A stretch of 64,000 nt of DNA from Natrialbaceae archaeon AArc-T1-2. GTDB taxonomy: Archaea; Halobacteriota; Halobacteria; Halobacteriales; Natrialbaceae. The stretch covers positions 2,356,001-2,420,000 of the forward strand of contig NZ_CP127174.1 in NCBI RefSeq assembly GCF_030273315.1, read 5' to 3'. Position 1 is the stretch's first letter, and every line of letters starts with the position of its first letter. Positions 48,296 through 59,524 of the stretch are shown here, one piece after another. Position numbers and translations under genes: made by a program. Below the pieces are notes generated by a model, which worked only from the letters and a program-made list of their open reading frames with translations, did not search any database and was not told the DNA's origin.

Positions 48296-48326
48296 GCTTA
48301 TGTATTCGAATATCGAAATACGGACG
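48296..48326 (+). promoter_or_regulatory. Probable autoregulated ArsR promoter and operator
   Basis: A TATA-like CTTATG (48296-48301) lies about 27 nt before the ATG at 48327. Between them is TATTCGAATATCGAAATA (48301-48318), an imperfect dyad (TTCGAATATCGAA) like known ArsR-family operators. A repressor bound here would block the start site of a leaderless transcript. Confidence 0.5.
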
Positions 48327-48692
48327 ATGGACGAACGAAGGCCCAACAGCGAGTGTGAGCTGGTACTCTCCGAGGACGACGCCACGCCGTTCTCGGACCG
48401 CGACGTCGACGAAGAGGTCGAAGTGTTCGCTACGCTAGGGAGTGAAACTCGGTATCGGATCCTCCTGCTTCTCGACGCCGCCGACGGACCCGTCTGCGTC
48501 TGCGAACTCGAGCCACACCTCGAGGTCGGCCAGAGTAGCATCAGTCAGTCGCTCTCGAAGCTCCGGAAGGCCGACCTGGTGTCGCGGACGAAAGAGGGGC
48601 GGTGGCGGTACTACGAACCGACGCCGAAAGCGGAGCGGCTGCTCGAGACCGTCCCGGGGGCGATGACCGATACGCCTGCCGCGACGCTGTAA
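48327..48692 (+). CDS. ArsR family winged-helix regulator
   Basis: The 121 residues form a winged helix with the ArsR pattern FATLGSETRYRILLLLDAADG, VCVCELEPHL, SQSSISQSLSKLRKADLVSRTKEGRWRYYE (approximate). Cys57 and Cys59 in VCVCEL match the alpha-3 metal or metalloid site (ELCVCDL) of arsenite-sensing ArsR proteins. The start at 48327 is preferred over an in-frame ATG at 48300 because of the TATA spacing. It lies upstream of and on the same strand as the molybdoenzyme operon, which it may control. Confidence 0.85.
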   Translation: MDERRPNSECELVLSEDDATPFSDRDVDEEVEVFATLGSETRYRILLLLDAADGPVCVCELEPHLEVGQSSISQSLSKLRKADLVSRTKEGRWRYYEPTPKAERLLETVPGAMTDTPAATL

Positions 48693-49010: not shown

Positions 49011-49061
49011 ATGCTCGTCACTAGCATACGGCGATCCGACGGGTGGTGGTCGGCGCTATGA
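49011..49061 (+). CDS. Candidate 16-codon leader ORF coupled to the molybdoenzyme gene
   Basis: ATG at 49011 lies about 27 nt after the second TATA-like box and opens MLVTSIRRSDGWWSAL. Its TGA overlaps the ATG of the oxidoreductase (ATGA, 49058-49061). If transcription starts here, the ribosome would load on this ORF and reinitiate at the main start. Alternatives are that it is untranslated chance sequence, or that the main protein starts at a GTG at 49043. Confidence 0.35.
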   Translation: MLVTSIRRSDGWWSAL

Positions 49062-51847
49062 GCCTGAACGTCACCGAGAAGGAAGGGAATGCGTCGGGTA
49101 GCATCTCCAGACGAACGGTGCTGAAATCGATCGGGCTCGCAGCCGCGGGAGCGAGTCTCGGCGGCGCGAAGTACTTCAGTGCGGCCGGCAGTGCCGACGA
49201 CGCGCCGTCGTTCGAGATGGACGAGGTGTCGACGGCCTGCTGGATCGGCAAGCAGGACTGTACGATGCGGGCGAACGTCGTCAACGACCGCGTCGTCCAC
49301 CTCAAGCCCGACCCGAACGACGAGGTCATCGACGGCCTCTGTCCGAAAGGCGTCGGCCAGATCGCCGACCTCTACGACCCCTATCGAGTCAAACAGCCGC
49401 TCAAGCGCGTCGGCGGCGAGAAAGGCGAGGTCGGCGAGTTCGAACCGATCTCCTGGGAACAGGCGGCCGAGGAGATCGGCGAGGAACTCGGGCCGATGCT
49501 CGAGGACGACCCCCGCCGGGTACACTTCCAGATCGGCCGCGTGAAAGGCGCGGAGTGGCACATGGACGGCTGGGTCGCCGCCCTCGAGGAAGAGTACGGC
49601 GAGGGAATCAACGTCCGTGGCCACGGCAACGTCTGTGCGACGGGCAACAAGATGGCCATCAGCCGGATGGGAGCCGGCTTCTCGACGCCGGAACCCGACT
49701 TCGACAACACCGAGTTCTTCCTGAACTGGGGCTGGAACGCGACCCAGGCCGGCGGTCCACACCTCTGTAACACCACCTACTCGAAGGAGATGGCAGAGGG
49801 GTACGAGGACGGGATGGACGTCGCCGTGCTCGATCCCCAGCGACGGGGCTCGGGCCAGTGGTGTGACGAGTGGCTGCCGATCGAACCCGGCACCGACCTG
49901 GCCTTCTTCCTCGCGTTCAACCACGTCCTCATCGAGGAGGGCTACGTCGACGACTGGTTCCTCCGGAACACCACGAACGCCCCGTGTCTCGTCTACACCG
50001 AAGGCGACAATGAGGGGGAACTCGCCCGCGCCGACGACGCGGAAGATCCCGTCGAGTCGGTGCTGTGGACCGAGGGCGAACTCGTCTACGACGAGGAGGC
50101 AGGCGAGATCGTCCCCCACGAGGAGACGCTGCCCGAGGACCCACAGGATCCGTCGGCGGTCGGCACGGCGGCCCTTCGCGTCGACGAGGACCTCGAGGTA
50201 AACGGCGATACGGTTCGGCCGGCCTTCGAGCTGTTCGAAGAACACGTCGCCGACTACGATCCGGAGTGGGCCGCGGAGATCACCGACCTCCCGGCCGAGC
50301 AGATCCGTCGCGTCGCCGAGACGTGGGGCGAGGAGGCCCGCATCGGCGCGACGACGACGGTCGAGGTAAACGGCGAGCGCCGACAGGTGCCCTACCGGCC
50401 GGTCTCGATGTCGCTGTATCACGTCAGCCAGCAGGAACTCGGTCCGACCGCGATGCAGGCCGGCGTCATGCCGATGTTCCTGGTCGGTGCCGTCGAAACC
50501 GTCGGGAGCAGCCGAACCGGTTACCAGAACGCACCGAACCCGGCCCACAGGGAACACGTCCGCGAACAGGCGTTCGACCCCGAGGAAGCACTTAGCTGGG
50601 AGCCGGACGGCCCCGACCTCGAGGGGACGTACTTCCATCCGGACGCCAACGGCGCGTACTCGCGCGTGCCGGACGTGCTCAACAACGCCGACGAGTACAA
50701 CCTCCCACACGACCCCGAGGACATGGCCGTCGTCGTCTGTTATGCGAACCCGGTGTCGGGTGCGCCAAACCAGGAGCGAAGCCGGGAGGGCTACTCCCAG
50801 TACGGCACCGTCATCGCGGTCGATCCCGAGATGAGCGACACGGCAGCCTACACTGCCGACTACGTGTTGCCGACGACGACCGTCGACAAACACGAGAACG
50901 CCAAAGACGGGATGAGCAACACCCACTACACGAGCGCGACCCGGACGGCACCGATCCCACAGCTGTGGGAGTGTCGCGACGAGGGCGAGATCTTCAAAGA
51001 CCTCGCCGCCGAACTCGACGCGGGCGACAACTACGTCGAGCAGATCAACGACGCCTTCGAACTCGAGGGAGCCGACGCGTTCGACAGCGTCGACGAGATC
51101 AGCGTCGAGGAGTGTATGGACCGGACGCCTCGCTACGGCGAGGAGTTTCGCGACGCGCCACAGAGCGAGGAGCGCCCGCTGTACGAACGGTACTGGGTAC
51201 TCCTATCAGAATCGGAGCACCTGGATGAGGACGTCCACCGCACCGAGTACAGCCCGTTCGGACTCAAGTGGCAGTTCTACCTCGAGTCCTTCCAGCTCAT
51301 GGGCGAGAACGTCCGTGGGGGCTTCGCCGAGGAGTACGGCGACGACGCGACCGAACAGTTCCCCTACATCCAGGACATCACCGGCTTCGCGGACTGGCGC
51401 GAGCCCACGATGTGGACCTCCCCAGCGGAGTACGAGTACACGCTGTTCGATTACAAGCAGATCGAACACAAACAGACCCGGACCGCACAGAACCCGCTGT
51501 TGAACGAACTCGCACCGAAAAACCACATCCGCATGAACCCACGCGACGCCGACGAGATCGGCGTCTCCGACGGCGACCGGGTCGTCCTCGAGAGCCACAA
51601 CGCGGTCACCGACGAGACCTACGAACTCGAGGGCGACGTGATGACCCTCCAGGGCATCAAGCCGGGGACGATCGCGATCCCGTACGGGAACGATACCCAC
51701 TCGGAACACCCCAACGTCGAGGAACTCGACGAGGGGATCAATCCCAACGAGCTGTTCGACTCGACGCCGGGATACTGTTCGTGGGCCGCCGACCAGTCGT
51801 TCCACATCCGTGTCAGAGCCGAGCCCGCAGGGGGTGATGGCGCATGA
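49058..51847 (+). CDS. Tat-exported molybdopterin oxidoreductase, catalytic (A) subunit
   Basis: This 929-residue subunit belongs to the DMSO-reductase superfamily (complex iron-sulfur molybdoenzymes). A twin-arginine signal SRRTVLKSIGLAAAGASLGG (17-36) predicts export. The proximal Fe-S motif reads Cys61-x2-Gly64-x3-Cys68...Cys95, so the second Cys is Gly. NVRGHGNVCATGNKMA (186-201) places Cys193 where the molybdenum ligand lies in Cys-ligated members such as Arr, Psr, Phs and Ttr; DmsA uses Ser. The C-terminal domain binds the second guanine dinucleotide. The substrate is unknown; arsenate, polysulfide, thiosulfate and tetrathionate are all possible. Confidence 0.88.
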   Translation: MSLNVTEKEGNASGSISRRTVLKSIGLAAAGASLGGAKYFSAAGSADDAPSFEMDEVSTACWIGKQDCTMRANVVNDRVVHLKPDPNDEVIDGLCPKGVGQIADLYDPYRVKQPLKRVGGEKGEVGEFEPISWEQAAEEIGEELGPMLEDDPRRVHFQIGRVKGAEWHMDGWVAALEEEYGEGINVRGHGNVCATGNKMAISRMGAGFSTPEPDFDNTEFFLNWGWNATQAGGPHLCNTTYSKEMAEGYEDGMDVAVLDPQRRGSGQWCDEWLPIEPGTDLAFFLAFNHVLIEEGYVDDWFLRNTTNAPCLVYTEGDNEGELARADDAEDPVESVLWTEGELVYDEEAGEIVPHEETLPEDPQDPSAVGTAALRVDEDLEVNGDTVRPAFELFEEHVADYDPEWAAEITDLPAEQIRRVAETWGEEARIGATTTVEVNGERRQVPYRPVSMSLYHVSQQELGPTAMQAGVMPMFLVGAVETVGSSRTGYQNAPNPAHREHVREQAFDPEEALSWEPDGPDLEGTYFHPDANGAYSRVPDVLNNADEYNLPHDPEDMAVVVCYANPVSGAPNQERSREGYSQYGTVIAVDPEMSDTAAYTADYVLPTTTVDKHENAKDGMSNTHYTSATRTAPIPQLWECRDEGEIFKDLAAELDAGDNYVEQINDAFELEGADAFDSVDEISVEECMDRTPRYGEEFRDAPQSEERPLYERYWVLLSESEHLDEDVHRTEYSPFGLKWQFYLESFQLMGENVRGGFAEEYGDDATEQFPYIQDITGFADWREPTMWTSPAEYEYTLFDYKQIEHKQTRTAQNPLLNELAPKNHIRMNPRDADEIGVSDGDRVVLESHNAVTDETYELEGDVMTLQGIKPGTIAIPYGNDTHSEHPNVEELDEGINPNELFDSTPGYCSWAADQSFHIRVRAEPAGGDGA

Positions 51848-52707
51848 GCCAGATGGGCATGGCGATCGACTTAGAGCGCTGTCAGGGCTGTCGTGCCTGC
51901 GTGCTCGCCTGCAAGACCGAGAACGACACGCCCCGTGGCGCGTTCTGGATGAACGTCTTCCGTCACGAGGAAGGCGAGTTCCCGGACGTCGAGCAGGGCT
52001 TTACCCCGAACCCGTGTCACCACTGTTCGGAACCGTCCTGTTCGGAGGTCTGTCCGACCGACGCGCGGTTCAAGCGCGAAGACGACGGCATCGTTCTCAC
52101 GGACTACGACACCTGTATCGGCTGTCGGTACTGCGAGGTCGGCTGTCCCTACGGCGTCAACTACTTCCAGTGGCGCGACTCCGAGGAGGGCCAGTACGGC
52201 TTCGCCTCCGAAGCGGAACTCGTCCAGGACGTCCACCAGAACCTCGAGGAGCTCGACGCGGACTTCGAGGGCGACGACCGACCGTGGGCCGACCCCGGCC
52301 TCGACGCCGTCCAGGAGCCACGCGGCAACAAGATGGGCGGCGGCGACCAGAAGGTCGGGACGATGGGCAAGTGTACCTTCTGTGTCCAGCGTCAGGACGG
52401 CGACGACGACGAACTCCGGGGAACGACCGCCTGCGAGGAGGTCTGCCCGACCAACGTCATCTTCTTCGGGGACATGGAAGATCCCGAGAGCAAACCCCGC
52501 CAGCACCTCGCGGAACACTCCGGCAAGGAGCAGTGGCAGATGCTCGAGGGCACGGGCAACGAGCCGAACGTCGTCTACCTCGGCGAACAGCCTGGTTCGG
52601 GCGCTCGCAACATGGAGGACAACTACAAGGACCCCGAGGAGGCGATCGAGGCAGAGGCCGATCGTGAGCCTGGGTACCTGGTTACCGACGGAGGTGAGCA
52701 GCAATGA
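51844..52707 (+). CDS. Four-cluster ferredoxin (B) subunit of the molybdoenzyme
   Basis: This 287-residue DmsB/PsrB-type electron-transfer subunit has four cysteine groups: CQGCRACVLAC (14-24), CHHCSEPSCSEVCP, CIGCRYCEVGCP, and CTFC...CEEVCP. These are enough for four [4Fe-4S] clusters wired between catalytic and membrane subunits. It lacks its own signal and is probably exported with subunit A by the Tat system. It starts inside the stop of the A gene (ATGA). Confidence 0.93.
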   Translation: MSQMGMAIDLERCQGCRACVLACKTENDTPRGAFWMNVFRHEEGEFPDVEQGFTPNPCHHCSEPSCSEVCPTDARFKREDDGIVLTDYDTCIGCRYCEVGCPYGVNYFQWRDSEEGQYGFASEAELVQDVHQNLEELDADFEGDDRPWADPGLDAVQEPRGNKMGGGDQKVGTMGKCTFCVQRQDGDDDELRGTTACEEVCPTNVIFFGDMEDPESKPRQHLAEHSGKEQWQMLEGTGNEPNVVYLGEQPGSGARNMEDNYKDPEEAIEAEADREPGYLVTDGGEQQ

Positions 52708-54059
52708 GCGCAATCGACGCCGACATCGAACGGCTCACCGAACCGCTGCGGAACACCTCGAGGAAGTTCTACGTCGCGCTGGTCGTGTCGGCGATCGTCT
52801 CGCTCGGCGTCGGCGTCGCGTACCTCAGCCAGCTCCGGTTCGGAATGGCCATCACCGGCCTGGACGGCTGGGGAACCCAGGGTGGCGTCCCGTGGGGGCT
52901 GTACATCGGGACGTTCGTCTGGTGGATCGGCATCGCCCACGGTGGCGTCGCCATCTCCGCCGCGGTCCGGCTGTTCGACTTCAAGGAGTACCTGCCGATC
53001 GCCCGGATCGCCGAGATCCTGACGCTGATCGCGTTGCCGATGGCGGCGACGAACATCCTGTTCGACATCGGCCGTCCCGACCAGCTGTGGGTCATGATCA
53101 CGAACTGGCCAACGACGGTCCAGACCTCGCCGCTGACTTGGGACATGACGGCGACGTTCCTGTACTTCATCATGGCAGGAACGTATCTCGTCATCACGCT
53201 CCGTAACGACCTCTACGACTGCATGCAGCGTGGAACGCTGCCGTCGGCGCTGAGCCCGCTGTACAAGCTGTTGTTGCTCGGCTACCGCCCGAGCGAGCGC
53301 GAGAAGACCCACCAGATGGCGTGGTGGATGGCCGTCGGCATCCTGCTTCTGGTCCCGCTGATGAGCGGCGGCGTCGTCCCGTGGCTGTTCGCCACGATGG
53401 GGATGCATCCCGGCTGGTTCGGTGCCTCCCACGGGCCGGCGATGTTCGCCGAGTCGATGACCTCCGCGATCGCCGCCGTGGTCATCACCGCGGCCGCCTT
53501 CCGGTGGGCCTACGGCTGGGACGACGTGATCAGCGACGAGATCTTCCGTGGCCTGAACAAGGCGCTGATCGCGCTCGTGTTGGTCACGCTGTGGTTCCTG
53601 GCACAGGACCTGGTCACCGGCTCCTACCCGGCCGCCCCGACCGACGTCGGCGAACTCACCGCCTCGCTCGTGACCGGGAGCATGGCGACCCCGTTCTGGC
53701 TCGCCGTCGGTGGCCTCGTCGTTGCGCTCGCGTATCTGGTCGCCCAGGCGCTTCGCCCGTCGCTGTTTAGCATCGGTGCTTCGGTGATCGCAGCCGTCCT
53801 CGTGACGGGCTCGATCCTGCTGAAGAAGGTCGTCTTCGTCGTCGAGGGGCTTCTCTACCCGACGCGGGATCCGCTGGCGAGTATGTTCCCCGCGAACAGC
53901 TACTGGCCGACGATCCCCGAGTTCGTGATGGCACTCGGGACGATCGGCGTCGCGGTGTTGATCTTCCTCGTCGCGACGAAGATCATCCCGATCGTCGAAC
54001 TCGAGCACGCCAGACAGACGGATGAGGAGGAGGCCGACTCGGAGGTGATCGAAGCATGA
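52704..54059 (+). CDS. NrfD/PsrC-like membrane subunit (C)
   Basis: This 451-residue protein has about ten transmembrane helices and begins with the NrfD-type WGLYIGTFVWWIGIAHGGVA in the second span. NrfD proteins anchor the exported subunits and exchange electrons and protons with the quinone pool. There are no heme-binding His pairs of the b-type cytochrome kind. The gene is coupled to the B gene and the next small gene by ATGA overlaps. Confidence 0.92.
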   Translation: MSAIDADIERLTEPLRNTSRKFYVALVVSAIVSLGVGVAYLSQLRFGMAITGLDGWGTQGGVPWGLYIGTFVWWIGIAHGGVAISAAVRLFDFKEYLPIARIAEILTLIALPMAATNILFDIGRPDQLWVMITNWPTTVQTSPLTWDMTATFLYFIMAGTYLVITLRNDLYDCMQRGTLPSALSPLYKLLLLGYRPSEREKTHQMAWWMAVGILLLVPLMSGGVVPWLFATMGMHPGWFGASHGPAMFAESMTSAIAAVVITAAAFRWAYGWDDVISDEIFRGLNKALIALVLVTLWFLAQDLVTGSYPAAPTDVGELTASLVTGSMATPFWLAVGGLVVALAYLVAQALRPSLFSIGASVIAAVLVTGSILLKKVVFVVEGLLYPTRDPLASMFPANSYWPTIPEFVMALGTIGVAVLIFLVATKIIPIVELEHARQTDEEEADSEVIEA

Positions 54060-54404: not shown

Positions 54405-55016
54405 ATGAGTACGATGAGTGACGCGGATGCGGACGCGGAAGTGACCGAAATCGGCGCGTTGCTGGCACCGGCCTACCGTACGCTCGGCCAGCTGTATCTC
54501 GAGCCGCCGGACGAGCGGACGGTACGAGCGATCCAGCAGTGGTGTGACGCGTTCGCCGACGAGTCGCTCCCGCCGGAGCTCGAGGCGGCCGTCGAGACCG
54601 TCCGGACCGCCGACCCCGAGCTCGACGTGCTACGTGGTGCGTTCACGCGGCTCCTGCAGGGCGTGAGCTACGGCGAGGCCGTTCCGCCGCCGTACGAGTC
54701 GATGTACGTCGACGAGATGCTCAACGGTCCGAGTTCGACGGAGGTCGAGGCCTTCTACTACGAGGTGGGGGTCACGCTCGACGTCGACGACGAACTCATC
54801 GATCACGCGGGCTACGAACTGTCCTTCCTCGCCGAGCTGTGTGATCGCGGCGACCGGGAGGCACAGCTGGGGTTCATCCGGACCCACGTCGGCGACTGGC
54901 TCACTGAGTTCCACGAGGCCGCCCGCGGGGAGGACCCGCCGGCGTTCTACCGGGGGCTGTTCGCCCTGACCGAATCGCTCCTCGAACTGCACGCGGACAC
55001 CCTCGAAGAATCATGA
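54405..55016 (+). CDS. TorD/DmsD-like molybdoenzyme chaperone
   Basis: This 203-residue all-helical protein of the TorD family has LLAPAYRTLGQLYLEPPDE near the N-terminus and the family core VPPPYESMYVDEM...VEAFYYEVGVTL...DHAGYELSFLAELC. Such chaperones bind the Tat signal of the catalytic subunit until cofactor is inserted. The ATG at 54405 (a second ATG is at 54414) overlaps the end of a 19-codon ORF starting at 54346. An AT-rich GTATTAG near 54328 suggests an internal promoter. It overlaps the next gene by 4 nt. Confidence 0.88.
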   Translation: MSTMSDADADAEVTEIGALLAPAYRTLGQLYLEPPDERTVRAIQQWCDAFADESLPPELEAAVETVRTADPELDVLRGAFTRLLQGVSYGEAVPPPYESMYVDEMLNGPSSTEVEAFYYEVGVTLDVDDELIDHAGYELSFLAELCDRGDREAQLGFIRTHVGDWLTEFHEAARGEDPPAFYRGLFALTESLLELHADTLEES

Positions 55017-57124
55017 CCGACGACAGCGACGTCGGCGCGTTCGTCTGCTCGTGTGCCGATACCTGTGACGTCAATCTCGACGTGGCACGCGAACGGGTAG
55101 ACGACGTGGCGATGGCCGCCAGTTCCGACCTGCTGTGTGGTGAAGACACCCTCGGTGACGTCTGCAGCGTCGTCGAGGAGCGCGACCTGACCGACGTGAT
55201 CGTCACCTGCCCGGCAGCGGCCGGCCAGCAACAGCTCGAGCGCGTCGAAGCGGAGACGGGCGCGACCGTCCACTTCGTCGACCAGCGCGAGGGCGCGGGC
55301 TGGGTCCACGACGAACGGGCAGCCACCGAGAAGACGGCCCGGCTGGTCAACGCCGCCCGCGCCAGCCTCGTCGATGGCGACGAGCCGGCATCGGTCGGTG
55401 GCGACGTCGGCCGCTCGGTCGCGGTCGTCGGCGACGCACAACTGGCCGCGGCGATGCCCGACTCCGCGGACGTGAGCCTGATCGCCGACGGCCAGGAACT
55501 CGACGACGTCGGCGTCGACCTCTCCGCGGTCAGCCTCGAGCGCGGTCGCGTCCGGGACGTCTCCGGCACGCTCGGCAATTTCGAGGTCGTCCTCGAGTCC
55601 CGCGTGACCGAGGACTGCATCGACTGCATGGAGTGTGTCCGGCTCGGCCCCGACGACGGCGTGACGCGGACACCGGTCGACGTCGACCCCGACGTCGACA
55701 GCGGGGAGTGGGTCGAGGTCTGTCCGACCGACGCGATCGACCTCGAGGGCGTCACTCGCACGGTCCCGTTCGACCAGGTCGTCCATCCCGACGGCGCAGA
55801 CGACGCGGTCGGGGGGACCACGGGCTATCACACCGACGACGACCTCGGGACGATCGCCGCGGTCAGTGACCTGCTCGGGCTCGACCGGGGGTCGTACCTC
55901 GAGCTCGAGCCCGACGTCTGTGCCGCCGGCGACTCCGGCCAGGAGGGGTGTCGGGCCTGTTACGACGCCTGTCCTCACGACGCGGTCTCGAAGCCCGCAC
56001 CTGACGAAGTCTCGTTCGACCTCGCTGCCTGCCAGAACTGCGGGGCCTGTACGAGCTCCTGTCCGACCGGCGCGGTCGAACTGACCGAGCGGTCCAGCGA
56101 ACGCATCGCCCGCGAGGTCGAGGCGCTCGTCGACGAGGCACCCGGCGGCGGGCTGCTCGATCGCTCCGGCCCCGCGATCGACGAACAGGTCGTCGCCTTC
56201 GTCTGTTCCGAGCGAGCCGAACGCGCGCTCTCGACGTACGGCCGGATGGCGGCACGCGGCGACGCCGACGTCTCCTACCCGCCGATCCTCCCGGTACGGG
56301 TCAACTGTACCGACACGGTCGGCGAGGCCCACGTCCTCCACGCGCTGGCTGCGGGAGCAGACGGCGTGACGATCGTCGGCTGTGGCTGTGACTGTTCCCA
56401 CTCCGGCCCCGATCCGAAAGCCGAGCTGGTCGAGCGGCTGAACACCGCGACGTCCGACCTCGGGCTCGGCGAACGCGTCCGGTTCCTCGCGCCCGAGCCC
56501 GACGCGCCCGCGGCGTTCGCCGACGAGCTCGCGGCGTTCGTCGACGACCTCGAGGCGACGCCGATCCCCGCGGGCGAACACGCGGCCTCGGGAACGTCGC
56601 TGTCTGCCGACGACGAGGACCTCCCCGCGTTCGGCAACCGCGTGTGGGCCCTAGAGAGCGTCCGTGCGATCCTCGAGCACGTCGAGCCAGAGCGTGAGCT
56701 GATCCGTGGCCTCGAGAGCTTCGGGACGATGTCGGTCGACGACAGCTGTGGCATGACCCCGACCTGCGAGAACCTCTGTCCGACCGGCGCGATCCGTCGC
56801 TCGGCCGAGGCCGGCACGCTCGAGTTCAACCACGAACGATGTGTCAACTGCGAGCTCTGTGAGTCGGGCTGTCCCGAAACCGCCATCACCATGGAGACCG
56901 GACTCGACGTAGGACTGTTGCCCGAGGAAAACGACGGCGACGCCTGGACGACCGTCCACGAGGAGGAGATGTTCGAGTGCCGGAGCTGTGGTGCTGTCGT
57001 CGCCAGCGTCTCGACGGTCGAGGAAATAAAAGAAGCGCTCCCCGACGACGAGATGGACGGCGTCGACGGCCACATGGCGGAATACTGTAGTGACTGCAAG
57101 GGCGACCTCGCATTCAAGCTATGA
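55013..57124 (+). CDS. HdrA/MvhD-like multi-cluster iron-sulfur protein
   Basis: This 703-residue protein has several parts. Residues 1-118 resemble the HdrA N-domain (FVCSCADTCDVNLDV, LTDVIVTCPAAA, QREGAGWVHDERAATEKTARL). Residues 133-190 look like a decayed FAD domain. Cluster motifs follow at Cys202-237, Cys303-320 and Cys340-350. Residues 391-515 form an MvhD/FrhD-type domain (QVVAFVCSERA, ILPVRVNCTDTV, VGCGCDCSHSGP). Two more clusters (Cys579-589, Cys610-620) and a terminal Cys4 site (657-695) complete it. It probably links the membrane molybdoenzyme to a cytoplasmic electron carrier. Confidence 0.82.
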   Translation: MTDDSDVGAFVCSCADTCDVNLDVARERVDDVAMAASSDLLCGEDTLGDVCSVVEERDLTDVIVTCPAAAGQQQLERVEAETGATVHFVDQREGAGWVHDERAATEKTARLVNAARASLVDGDEPASVGGDVGRSVAVVGDAQLAAAMPDSADVSLIADGQELDDVGVDLSAVSLERGRVRDVSGTLGNFEVVLESRVTEDCIDCMECVRLGPDDGVTRTPVDVDPDVDSGEWVEVCPTDAIDLEGVTRTVPFDQVVHPDGADDAVGGTTGYHTDDDLGTIAAVSDLLGLDRGSYLELEPDVCAAGDSGQEGCRACYDACPHDAVSKPAPDEVSFDLAACQNCGACTSSCPTGAVELTERSSERIAREVEALVDEAPGGGLLDRSGPAIDEQVVAFVCSERAERALSTYGRMAARGDADVSYPPILPVRVNCTDTVGEAHVLHALAAGADGVTIVGCGCDCSHSGPDPKAELVERLNTATSDLGLGERVRFLAPEPDAPAAFADELAAFVDDLEATPIPAGEHAASGTSLSADDEDLPAFGNRVWALESVRAILEHVEPERELIRGLESFGTMSVDDSCGMTPTCENLCPTGAIRRSAEAGTLEFNHERCVNCELCESGCPETAITMETGLDVGLLPEENDGDAWTTVHEEEMFECRSCGAVVASVSTVEEIKEALPDDEMDGVDGHMAEYCSDCKGDLAFKL

Positions 57125-57204
57125 CTACGACCCTGATGACGGACGAACGACGGACGAACCGCTCGACGATCGACGGTGGCCAGGACGAAACGAGACCACG
57201 ATGA
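57121..57204 (+). CDS. Candidate 27-codon bridging ORF between the HdrA-like and Mrp genes
   Basis: The ATG at 57121 overlaps the TGA of the preceding gene (ATGA), and its own TGA overlaps the ATG at 57201 of the Mrp gene (ATGA again). The peptide starts MTTTLMTDERRTNRSTIDGG and resembles no family. It could let ribosomes cross a 76-nt gap by termination and reinitiation. It may also be chance openness, since stop codons are rare in this GC-rich DNA. Confidence 0.35.
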   Translation: MTTTLMTDERRTNRSTIDGGQDETRPR

Positions 57205-58376
57205 CCGCGACCGAGACACAGCTTCGCGAACGGCTCCGGCAGGTCGAGGATCCCGCGCTCGGGATCGACATCGTCTCGCTCGGACTGGTCGAGGACCTCC
57301 GGATCGACGACGACGTCGCGAGGATCACCCTCGCGTTCAACGCTCCCTACGCGACTGACGAGATGCAGATGGGTGACCGGATCCGCGAGGTCGCCGCCGA
57401 CCTCGGCCTCGAGGCGAAACTATCGGTGACCGTTCCCGACCGCGAGAGCGATATATTGCCCGGCGTCCGGAACGTGATCGCGGTCTCCTCTGGGAAGGGT
57501 GGCGTCGGCAAGACGACCGTTGCGACGAATCTCGCGGCGGGGCTCGCCGACGCCGGTGCCCGCGTCGGCCTGCTCGACGGTGACATCTACGGCCCGAACG
57601 TCCCGAAGATGGCCGGCGTCATGGGTGAGCCGGGACTCAAAGAGGACGGTACGCTCGTCCCGCCGGAGGCCCACGGCGTGACGATGATCAGCATGGCGTT
57701 TCTCACCGGGGGCGGGGACGACCCCGCGGTGATGCGCGGGCCGATGATCGACAAGGTCCTCATGCAACTGCTCGACGACGTCGAGTGGGGCCAGCTCGAT
57801 TACCTCGTCGTCGACCTCCCGCCGGGGACCGGCGACGCACAGCTCACACTGTTGCAGTCCGTTCCCGTCACCGGCTCCGTGATCGTGACCACGCCCGAGG
57901 AAGTCGCCCTAGACGACGTTCGCAAGGGCATCGAGATGTTCCGGGATCACAACACGCCCGTACTCGGCATCGTCGAGAACATGAGCGCGTTTCACTGCCC
58001 CGACTGCGGGGGCGAACACGCCCTCTTCGGCAGCGGTGGCGGCCGCGAGGTCGCCGAGACGTACGACGTCCCGCTGCTCGAGGAGATCCCGATGGACCCG
58101 GAGATCCGGACCAAAGGCGACGAGGGCGCGCCGATCGTCCTCTGGGACACCGCCGCCTCGGACGCCTTCGAGGAGCTCGCTGGCTCGGTCGCGAACCGCG
58201 TCGGGGCGGTCAACCGGGCCGACGTCGCGGGCGTCGATCCCGACGATCCCGACCCCGAAGAACTCGATACTCCGCCCGAATACGGCGGCTTCGAGGAACT
58301 CGACGAGGACGACGAGAACGACGATGACGACGAGGCGACCGCTTTCGGCGGTCTCGACGTCTCGGATGGTGGGTGA
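57201..58376 (+). CDS. apbC: Mrp/NBP35 family Fe-S cluster carrier ATPase
   Basis: The 391 residues comprise an N-terminal MIP18/DUF59 domain (about 1-85) and a Mrp ATPase with the deviant Walker A VSSGKGGVGKTTVATNLA (about 94-111), LLDGDIYGPNVPKM and DYLVVDLPPGTGDAQLTL. A CPDC pair (FHCPDCGGEH) bridges the cluster in dimers. A very acidic tail follows. Mrp proteins deliver [4Fe-4S] clusters, which fits an operon encoding at least nine of them. I chose the ATG at 57201 because the MIP18 domain begins just after it. Confidence 0.92.
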   Translation: MTATETQLRERLRQVEDPALGIDIVSLGLVEDLRIDDDVARITLAFNAPYATDEMQMGDRIREVAADLGLEAKLSVTVPDRESDILPGVRNVIAVSSGKGGVGKTTVATNLAAGLADAGARVGLLDGDIYGPNVPKMAGVMGEPGLKEDGTLVPPEAHGVTMISMAFLTGGGDDPAVMRGPMIDKVLMQLLDDVEWGQLDYLVVDLPPGTGDAQLTLLQSVPVTGSVIVTTPEEVALDDVRKGIEMFRDHNTPVLGIVENMSAFHCPDCGGEHALFGSGGGREVAETYDVPLLEEIPMDPEIRTKGDEGAPIVLWDTAASDAFEELAGSVANRVGAVNRADVAGVDPDDPDPEELDTPPEYGGFEELDEDDENDDDDEATAFGGLDVSDGG

Positions 58377-58377
58377 C

Positions 58378-58470
58378 GTGGCGGCGATACCGACTGACAG
58401 CTCGTGGACGGCCCGGGCCGACGGTCACGCTGGTGGGCGTACGGCCACCGACTGGAACGGAGACGGATGA
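58378..58470 (+). CDS. Candidate 30-codon bridging ORF between the Mrp and mobA genes
   Basis: A GTG at 58378, one base after the Mrp stop, opens 30 codons ending in a TGA that overlaps the mobA ATG (ATGA, 58467-58470). The peptide begins MAAIPTDSSWTARADG and has no known relatives. This is the second gap in the operon bridged in this way. Translation is unproven. Confidence 0.3.
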   Translation: MAAIPTDSSWTARADGHAGGRTATDWNGDG

Positions 58471-59075
58471 CCACGGGAATCGTCATCGCCGGTGGCCCCT
58501 CCGAGCGATTCGGCGTCGAGGACAAGGCGCTCGCGACCCTGAACGGGTCGGCGATGCTCCGACACGTCGTCGACCGGCTGGCGGCCGTCTGTGACGAACT
58601 CGTCGTCAACTGCCGGCAGGAACAGCGACCCGCGTTCGAGGACGTCCTCGGAGACGTCGAGGTACCCATCCGGATCGCCGTCGATCCGGTTCAGTACGCC
58701 GGTCCCGTCGCCGGTCTCGAGACGGCACTCGAGCGCGTCGACGACGAGGTCACGATCGCCATCGGCTGTGACGCCCCGTTCGTCTCGCCGAGGGCGTTCG
58801 CCGAGTTACAGGAGACGCTCGTTGGCGGCGGGGACGTAGACGTCGTCGTCCCCCACGCCGGGGGCCGAAAGCAGCCCCTGGGTGGCGTCTATTACGTCGA
58901 CGCGCTCGCGGCCGCGATCGACGCGCTCGGGGACACCGAGAACGCCTCCTTGTTTGCCATCCTCGACCGACTCGAGGTCGGGGTCGTACCCGCAGACAGG
59001 CTTCCGGGTGGGGAGCGCGCGTTCAGAAACGTCAATACCCGTGCGGACCTCGAGCGAGTGAGGACCCAGGAATGA
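58467..59075 (+). CDS. mobA: Molybdenum cofactor guanylyltransferase MobA
   Basis: This 202-residue nucleotidyltransferase joins GMP to molybdopterin, as needed for bis-MGD enzymes of the DMSO-reductase superfamily. Signatures are GIVIAGGPSERFGVEDKAL (the usual LAGGxSxRxGxDKA loop), DPVQYAGPVAGL, AIGCDAPFVSP and FRNVNTRADLE. Its place directly after the Mrp carrier and before mobB makes it dedicated to the neighbouring molybdoenzyme. Confidence 0.93.
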   Translation: MTTGIVIAGGPSERFGVEDKALATLNGSAMLRHVVDRLAAVCDELVVNCRQEQRPAFEDVLGDVEVPIRIAVDPVQYAGPVAGLETALERVDDEVTIAIGCDAPFVSPRAFAELQETLVGGGDVDVVVPHAGGRKQPLGGVYYVDALAAAIDALGDTENASLFAILDRLEVGVVPADRLPGGERAFRNVNTRADLERVRTQE

Positions 59076-59524
59076 ACGTGCTTCGCATCGTCGGTCCGAG
59101 CGACGCCGGCAAGACGACGCTCGTCGAGGAACTCGTGGGTCGGCTCGACTGTCGCGTCGCGACGGTGAAGTCGATCCACCACGACGTCGAACCGGATACG
59201 CCAGGAAAGGATACGTACCGCCACCGGGACGCAGGAGCCGACGCGACCGTCGGCGTCACTCCCTCGCGAACCTTCCGGATCACCGAACAGGGGAAAGGAA
59301 ACGACGAGGTCGAAACGCTGTATCGAATCCTCGGGGAGCTGGCCGATGACGGCTACGACGTCACGCTCGTCGAGGGGTTCAGCGCAGCAGCGCTTCCCGC
59401 GGTCGTCCTCGGCGGCCGCGAGGTCCCGGCCGAACACGTCGTCGCCCGCGGCGACCGAGCGGGAGACGTCGACGTCGACACCGTCCTCACGTGGCTCGAG
59501 ACGGCACCGCCGGCGCTCGAGTGA
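59072..59524 (+). CDS. mobB: Molybdopterin-guanine dinucleotide biosynthesis protein MobB
   Basis: This 150-residue P-loop protein starts MNVLRIVGPSDAGKTTLVEEL with an intact Walker A, then TVKSIHHDVEPDTPGKDTYRHRDAGAD and VEGFSAAALPAVVL. MobB binds GTP and assists MobA. It overlaps mobA by 4 nt and is the last gene of the operon, ending 76 nt before the convergent RNA ligase gene. The decayed MobB half of the moaE fusion at 17246 is a separate copy. Confidence 0.93.
   Translation: MNVLRIVGPSDAGKTTLVEELVGRLDCRVATVKSIHHDVEPDTPGKDTYRHRDAGADATVGVTPSRTFRITEQGKGNDEVETLYRILGELADDGYDVTLVEGFSAAALPAVVLGGREVPAEHVVARGDRAGDVDVDTVLTWLETAPPALE

Follow-up and report, generated by a model that had tools for sequence, protein, structure and literature searches.

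The catalytic subunit of a molybdopterin oxidoreductase operon in the window analysed here, a stretch of 64,000 nucleotides from Natrialbaceae archaeon AArc-T1-2, carries glycine where the second cysteine of its FS0 iron–sulfur cluster motif is expected, and this substitution is a real inherited trait common to all the close relatives that we found. Loss of the ligand probably alters FS0, the cluster that lies between the Mo site and the rest of the electron-transfer chain. The best explanation that we can offer, to which we give about an even chance, is that a haloarchaeal clade possesses a quinone-linked Mo enzyme acting on arsenate/arsenite through a three-Cys FS0 that is probably [3Fe-4S]; its cluster type, potential, substrate and direction are what we infer from the evidence below.

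In subunit A the motif reads Cys61-x2-Gly64-x3-Cys68-x26-Cys95, or in full C61-W-I-G64-K65-Q-D67-C68-x26-C95, with the residue letters CPKG at Cys95. With residues numbered from the ATG at 49058, the codons are TGC for Cys61 (49238-49240), GGC for Gly64 (49247-49249), TGT for Cys68 (49259-49261) and TGT for Cys95 (49340-49342); with the upstream GTG at 49043 as start, the reading of subunit A becomes 934 aa. A preliminary description of this DNA had proposed that Gly64 replaces an expected ligand while the other three Cys are kept, and a 47-row alignment bears this out: the C-x2-G-x3-C-x26-C spacing is exact, residue 64 falls without gaps opposite the second motif Cys of other homologues (CESCFAFC, CKMCVNFC and others), and C61, C68 and C95 are Cys in 47/47 rows.

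Table 1. Features of the operon and its surroundings (positions in the window)
Feature	Position	Strand	Basis
ArsR/SmtB-family regulator, VCVCEL motif, directly upstream of the subunit A gene	48300..48692	+	profile match; motif read
Catalytic subunit A, 929 aa	49058..51847	+	PF00384 + PF01568; Tat-type leader SRRTVLK (by eye)
FS0 cluster motif	49238..49342	+	read from sequence; column counts in alignments
Subunit B, electron-transfer protein, 16 cluster Cys (four 4-Cys sets)	51844..52707	+	profile match + alignment
Subunit C, NrfD/PsrC-type membrane anchor	52704..54059	+	PF03916
TorD/NarJ-type maturation chaperone	54405..55016	+	PF02613; start by codon score
703-aa protein, several Fer4 modules + FlpD domain	55013..57124	+	PF02662
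NUBPL/Mrp-type Fe-S carrier P-loop ATPase	57201..58376	+	PF10609 + PF01883
MobA-like molybdenum cofactor guanylyltransferase	58467..59075	+	PF12804
MobB	59072..59524	+	PF03205

Only few haloarchaeal genomes encode the Gly64 protein. Matches at E 1e-30 were found in 15 of the 391 genomes of a class sample, twelve of them full-length (the window's own included) and the other three covering the N-terminal part only, with C-x2-C-x3-C; an order sample gave 14/392 and a family sample 5/125, the three samples overlapping. The resulting orthologue set comprises 16 distinct haloarchaeal sequences, among them the window's and a plasmid copy from Natronorubrum bangense (L016); L148, identical to L016 over 939 residues, was left out. 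Identity to the window protein ranges from 44 to 84%. Gly64 is present in 16/16, as are C61, W62, K65, D67, C68 and C95, so that the loop CW-x-GK-x-DC is invariant, and Lys97 is likewise invariant in all 16. Invariant columns number 217/929 overall versus 9/12 in columns 57-68. The preliminary description had taken Cys in close homologues as the sign of a sequencing error or private mutation at the base calls of 49247-49249. The opposite is seen: 15 further distinct orthologous sequences also encode Gly, the conservation spans one clade, and we rule out such an error or private change, whose probability we regard as negligible. In a tree of 57 rows, built by a quick method with the motif columns left in and with long branches among the reference rows, the Gly64 orthologues fall into a single clade (SH-aLRT 100; stem length 0.88 changes per column), and a single origin therefore suffices.

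Outside this clade the second-Cys place looks different. Among 89 other homologues fetched (L013-L015, L017-L094 and L096-L103), 87 have Cys there and two have Asp (L102 and L103), a count that is no census of the superfamily because a single bacterial motif type (CYMCACRC) dominates the best 80 matches that the contig profile scan behind this set listed. In the 47-row alignment, the 34 outside rows, which are less redundant, give 32 Cys and 2 Asp at place 64. Lys65 and Asp67 each occur in 0/34 of these rows and in 13/13 clade rows of the same alignment, 16/16 in the full set; Cys237 and Cys310 show the same distribution (16/16 clade sequences, 13/13 in the alignment, 0/34 outside). The co-conserved Lys65 and Asp67, together with the arsenic gene context considered below, are additions to the preliminary description. 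The two Asp-bearing proteins, L102:1477-4068 (CNMDYNAC) and L103:148-2730 (CNLDYNAC), come from genomes of the window's phylum (G572 and G564). Since they sit elsewhere in the tree, the second ligand has seemingly been lost at least twice, with an apparently independent event behind their Asp. Among the literature titles and abstract openings listed, none described a Gly at the second-Cys place or a haloarchaeal Arr cluster motif.

By its domain matches (PF00384, 86.2 bits against a cut-off of 24; PF01568, 43.9 against 26.8), subunit A is a Tat-type molybdopterin catalytic subunit of the DMSO reductase (MopB/CISM) superfamily. The four-Cys FS0 motif C-x2-C-x3-C-xn-C, usual in many members, is absent from the clade (Gly64 in 16/16), and this leaves superfamily membership standing because the motif is not universal: AioA has Ser in it, and NarG, according to an excerpt of PMC8301774, has H-x3-C-x3-C. 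The column of Cys193 holds Cys in 46/47 rows, and this residue is a putative type I Mo ligand. The window's operon has the make-up of a CISM respiratory complex, with a four-cluster Fe-S subunit, an NrfD anchor and a NarJ-type chaperone, and the set of subunits A, B and C plus chaperone was matched in 12/12 neighbourhoods scanned. All 16 cluster Cys of subunit B are kept at 16/16 loci; the change is therefore confined to FS0. Taken as a whole, the Gly64 protein is a clade-wide variant within a known kind of enzyme.

Besides the window, four of 12 scanned neighbourhoods encode the 703-aa Fer4/FlpD protein, and these four belong to the window's sub-clade; by sub-clade, its gene is found at 5/6 scanned loci of the window's (none in L107) and at 0/7 of the other. 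The NUBPL-type ATPase gene was matched at 14/16 loci. We considered this ATPase as a special cluster-delivery answer to Gly64 and rejected the idea, as CISM-type genes adjoin three of this genome's four strong NUBPL paralogues; the pairing of NUBPL with CISM genes seems more widespread among haloarchaea.

How this enzyme relates to characterized families was assessed by profile scores and by fold. All 24 NCBIfam models listed for subunit A score under their cut-offs: PhsA (NF012032) is best with 196.2 bits against 694, followed by the type II DMSO reductase model (127 against 985), DmsA/YnfE (123 against 778) and ArrA (NF041714; 109.3 against 1600), and AioA (TIGR02693) reaches 17.9 against 359. 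An AlphaFold2 model of subunit A (mean pLDDT 83.4, pTM 0.87) compares about equally well with PsrA (Z 29.4, rmsd 2.8, 671 residues aligned) and with ArrA (Z 28.8, rmsd 3.2, 702 residues), and Foldseek ranked ArrA first. The folds of PsrA and ArrA come closest to that of subunit A, which scores as neither. At the column aligned to Lys198 of ArrA, which with Arg165 and Tyr210 we take to be a substrate residue, the orthologues have Lys (8/16), Tyr (7/16) or Gln (1/16), and the Arg alignment is ambiguous.

Each known system shares some features with the clade and lacks others. Like ArrA (Shewanella ANA-3, 6cz7) and ArxA, the clade enzyme would combine an exported type I (Cys-Mo) subunit with a four-cluster partner, and it has an arsenic gene context, here at half of the loci; ArrA, however, keeps C-x2-C-x3-C (CQGCTSWC). 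PsrA/PhsA (2vpw) offers the PsrABC-like operon, the best NCBIfam model and the joint best fold, but in Thermus PsrA the second Cys is present (CEGC), and the neighbours of the clade, where named, are arsenic rather than sulfur genes. The three-Cys FS0 itself is most reminiscent of AioA and IdrA. AioA has a [3Fe-4S] FS0, the Pfam model that it matches (PF18465) is named 'Rieske 3Fe-4S', and the haloarchaeal AioA at L113 reads CRYCIVGC and then SIRGG in place of the usual C-x-x-G. According to an excerpt of PMC10100899, the FS0 of IdrA, a protein clustering with AioA, is a high-potential [3Fe-4S] centre. The difference is that AioA is without the fourth Cys (Ser) and the clade protein without the second, and that the clade has an NrfD anchor where AioA has a Rieske partner. 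A further haloarchaeal protein, likewise outside the known families according to part of PMC5437934, is the 'Deep' CISM HTSR_0627 of Halodesulfurarchaeum formicicum, encoded in HTSR_0625-0630.

The genes around the operon point towards arsenic. Queries for ArsA, ArsD, Acr3, ArsM, AioA and AioB, at a threshold of at least 100 bits, matched within about 10 kb at 8/16 loci (L127, L107, L108, L110, L111, L113, L114 and L149) versus 0/20 control stretches (Fisher p 4e-4), the controls being hand-picked 19.5 kb stretches elsewhere in nine of the orthologue genomes and the test being partly circular because four of the eight positive loci (L110, L111, L113 and L127) had also provided the queries. Without these four the count is 4/12 (L107, L108, L114 and L149) versus 0/20 (p 0.014), where the L108 match and some of the L114 matches involve short ORFs or run into the stretch boundary and where L150 and L151 have shorter flanks. 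Genes of LMWP/ArsC-like and HcsL type were kept out of the count, as were ArsP_1 permeases, of which the one at L113 received other NCBIfam names (SO_0444 and SaoE, below cut-off) and which the control L157 also matches. Scores over NCBIfam cut-offs were obtained for AioA and AioB in L113, AioA in L114, Acr3 in L111 and ArsM in L110, and ArsR, ArsD and ArsA are annotated around the operon of Natronorubrum bangense. At the window locus itself, no gene of the query set lies within 9 kb; its ArsR-type regulator with a CVC motif is the only arsenic-type neighbour. In two congeneric genomes (G206 and G201), aioA/aioB share the island of the catalytic gene and are separated from it by about 3.5-4.5 kb (L113:1117-4288 and L114:1788-4960).

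What FS0 holds and what the enzyme reduces or oxidizes are separate questions, and the readings weighed here and in the next paragraph are not mutually exclusive. With three Cys, FS0 is most likely a [3Fe-4S] cluster, by an analogy with ferredoxins bearing Gly that crosses folds. As described in passages of PMC6237146, Ala or Gly for the second Cys is common in small [3Fe-4S] ferredoxins (CXXA/GXXC(X)nCP), and Mycobacterium marinum ferredoxins with other residues at this place were isolated as [3Fe-4S], with potentials of -340 to +230 mV; these proteins have another fold and x2 before the third Cys, versus x3 in the clade protein. Together with Gly64 in 16/16, this precedent lends sequence-level support to the earlier suggestion that the cluster is [3Fe-4S], uses an external ligand or has an unusual potential. 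One could instead imagine that a [4Fe-4S] cluster is kept with a replaced ligand, either Asp67 or water/hydroxide on the fourth iron, so that the cluster type would be the same and only the potential would shift. We entertain this tentatively, as something possible but rather doubtful: Asp67 stands beside Cys68 throughout the clade and in no outside row (16/16 versus 0/34), and Pyrococcus furiosus ferredoxin has an Asp-ligated, 3Fe/4Fe interconvertible cluster (PMC6237146, in part), yet Asp67 is three residues away from the place of the lost ligand, and Gly at that place is the common [3Fe-4S] mark of the ferredoxins just cited. Cys237 and Cys310 are further candidate replacement ligands. It is very improbable that FS0 has gone or become merely structural, with the remaining Cys serving folding. 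The N-terminal cluster is indeed missing in some superfamily members (PMC10100899, in part), but here all 16 sequences retain Lys97 and the three other ligands, and subunit B keeps its four cluster sites, for which a dead relay would have no use. In NarG, an excerpt of PMC10609526 states, neither FS0 nor the Mo cofactor is inserted once the FS0 Cys ligands are substituted, and the title of a reference in the same paper gives the same order for DmsABC; the NarG result makes a useless FS0 less likely in the Gly64 clade.

On the arsenic side, we envision a scenario in which the exported catalytic subunit of the operon would most likely interconvert arsenate and arsenite, electrons passing along a chain of quinone (at subunit C), the four unaltered subunit B clusters, the three-Cys FS0 and Mo at Cys193. 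FS0, the electron entry cluster, is without its second Cys ligand; the remaining three Cys would probably hold [3Fe-4S], and its potential would be expected to shift, probably upwards. Arsenate reduction is stated for 18 Halorubrum strains in an excerpt of PMC6650914. Against arsenic stand the eight of 16 loci, the window's included, that have no arsenic genes, the unconserved Lys198 column and the sulfur literature. The clade enzyme might instead be a Psr/Phs-type reductase of polysulfide, sulfur or thiosulfate, as further CISM enzymes of haloarchaea are, with the arsenic genes as chance or detoxification neighbours, an account that we consider unlikely. It would fit PhsA as the top NCBIfam model and PsrA as joint best fold, and the clade could be the lineage of HTSR_0627, which, per part of PMC5437934, fitted no CISM family and was up 68% on thiosulfate. 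Moreover, AArc-Sl has a putative Psr operon with arsenite-resistance genes flanking it, and the AArc isolates, soda-lake sulfur reducers, were all negative with arsenate, as sections of PMC6176080 report; but the same isolates were negative with thiosulfate too (PMC6176080, in part). Neither a rhodanese nor any other sulfur gene turned up by name in the neighbours that were scanned or annotated, which are part of all neighbours and include some without a match, and arsenic genes occur at 8/16 loci, arsenite oxidase among them. Taking these points together, we favor arsenate/arsenite as the substrate pair.

If the arsenic assignment is true, these operons are a candidate gene family for haloarchaeal arsenic respiration that the present ArrA model misses. 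Two arsenic molybdoenzymes would then be neighbours within the same haloarchaeal islands, each with a three-Cys [3Fe-4S] FS0, AioA having lost the fourth Cys and the Gly64 protein the second. As different ligands are lost in two neighbouring arsenic-linked enzymes, this would be convergence, provided that both three-Cys sites are true. We speculate, at somewhat less than even chance, that it reflects convergent retuning of the first relay, achieved here by the GK-x-D loop, in an undescribed respiratory arsenic family. A natural clade in which one ligand is replaced and three are kept also offers a ready test of how FS0 type affects potential, direction and maturation.

Other loci add minor observations. 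The window's genome encodes three other PF00384 proteins; by eye, one is Nas-like, one Fdh-like and one lies near rhodanese-like genes. At L125:9065-13231 (G000:C1, ~2.667-2.671 Mb) a gene for a 445-aa protein precedes one of NrfD type (by eye), after which come genes for a small protein and a NUBPL ATPase, and the PF00384 search gave no molybdopterin subunit at this locus. At L126:230-14299 (G000:C1, ~1.098-1.112 Mb) lie genes for another MopB enzyme (CFNCEAGC) and its ferredoxin-type subunit, near a repeated gene row that is rhodanese-like by eye.
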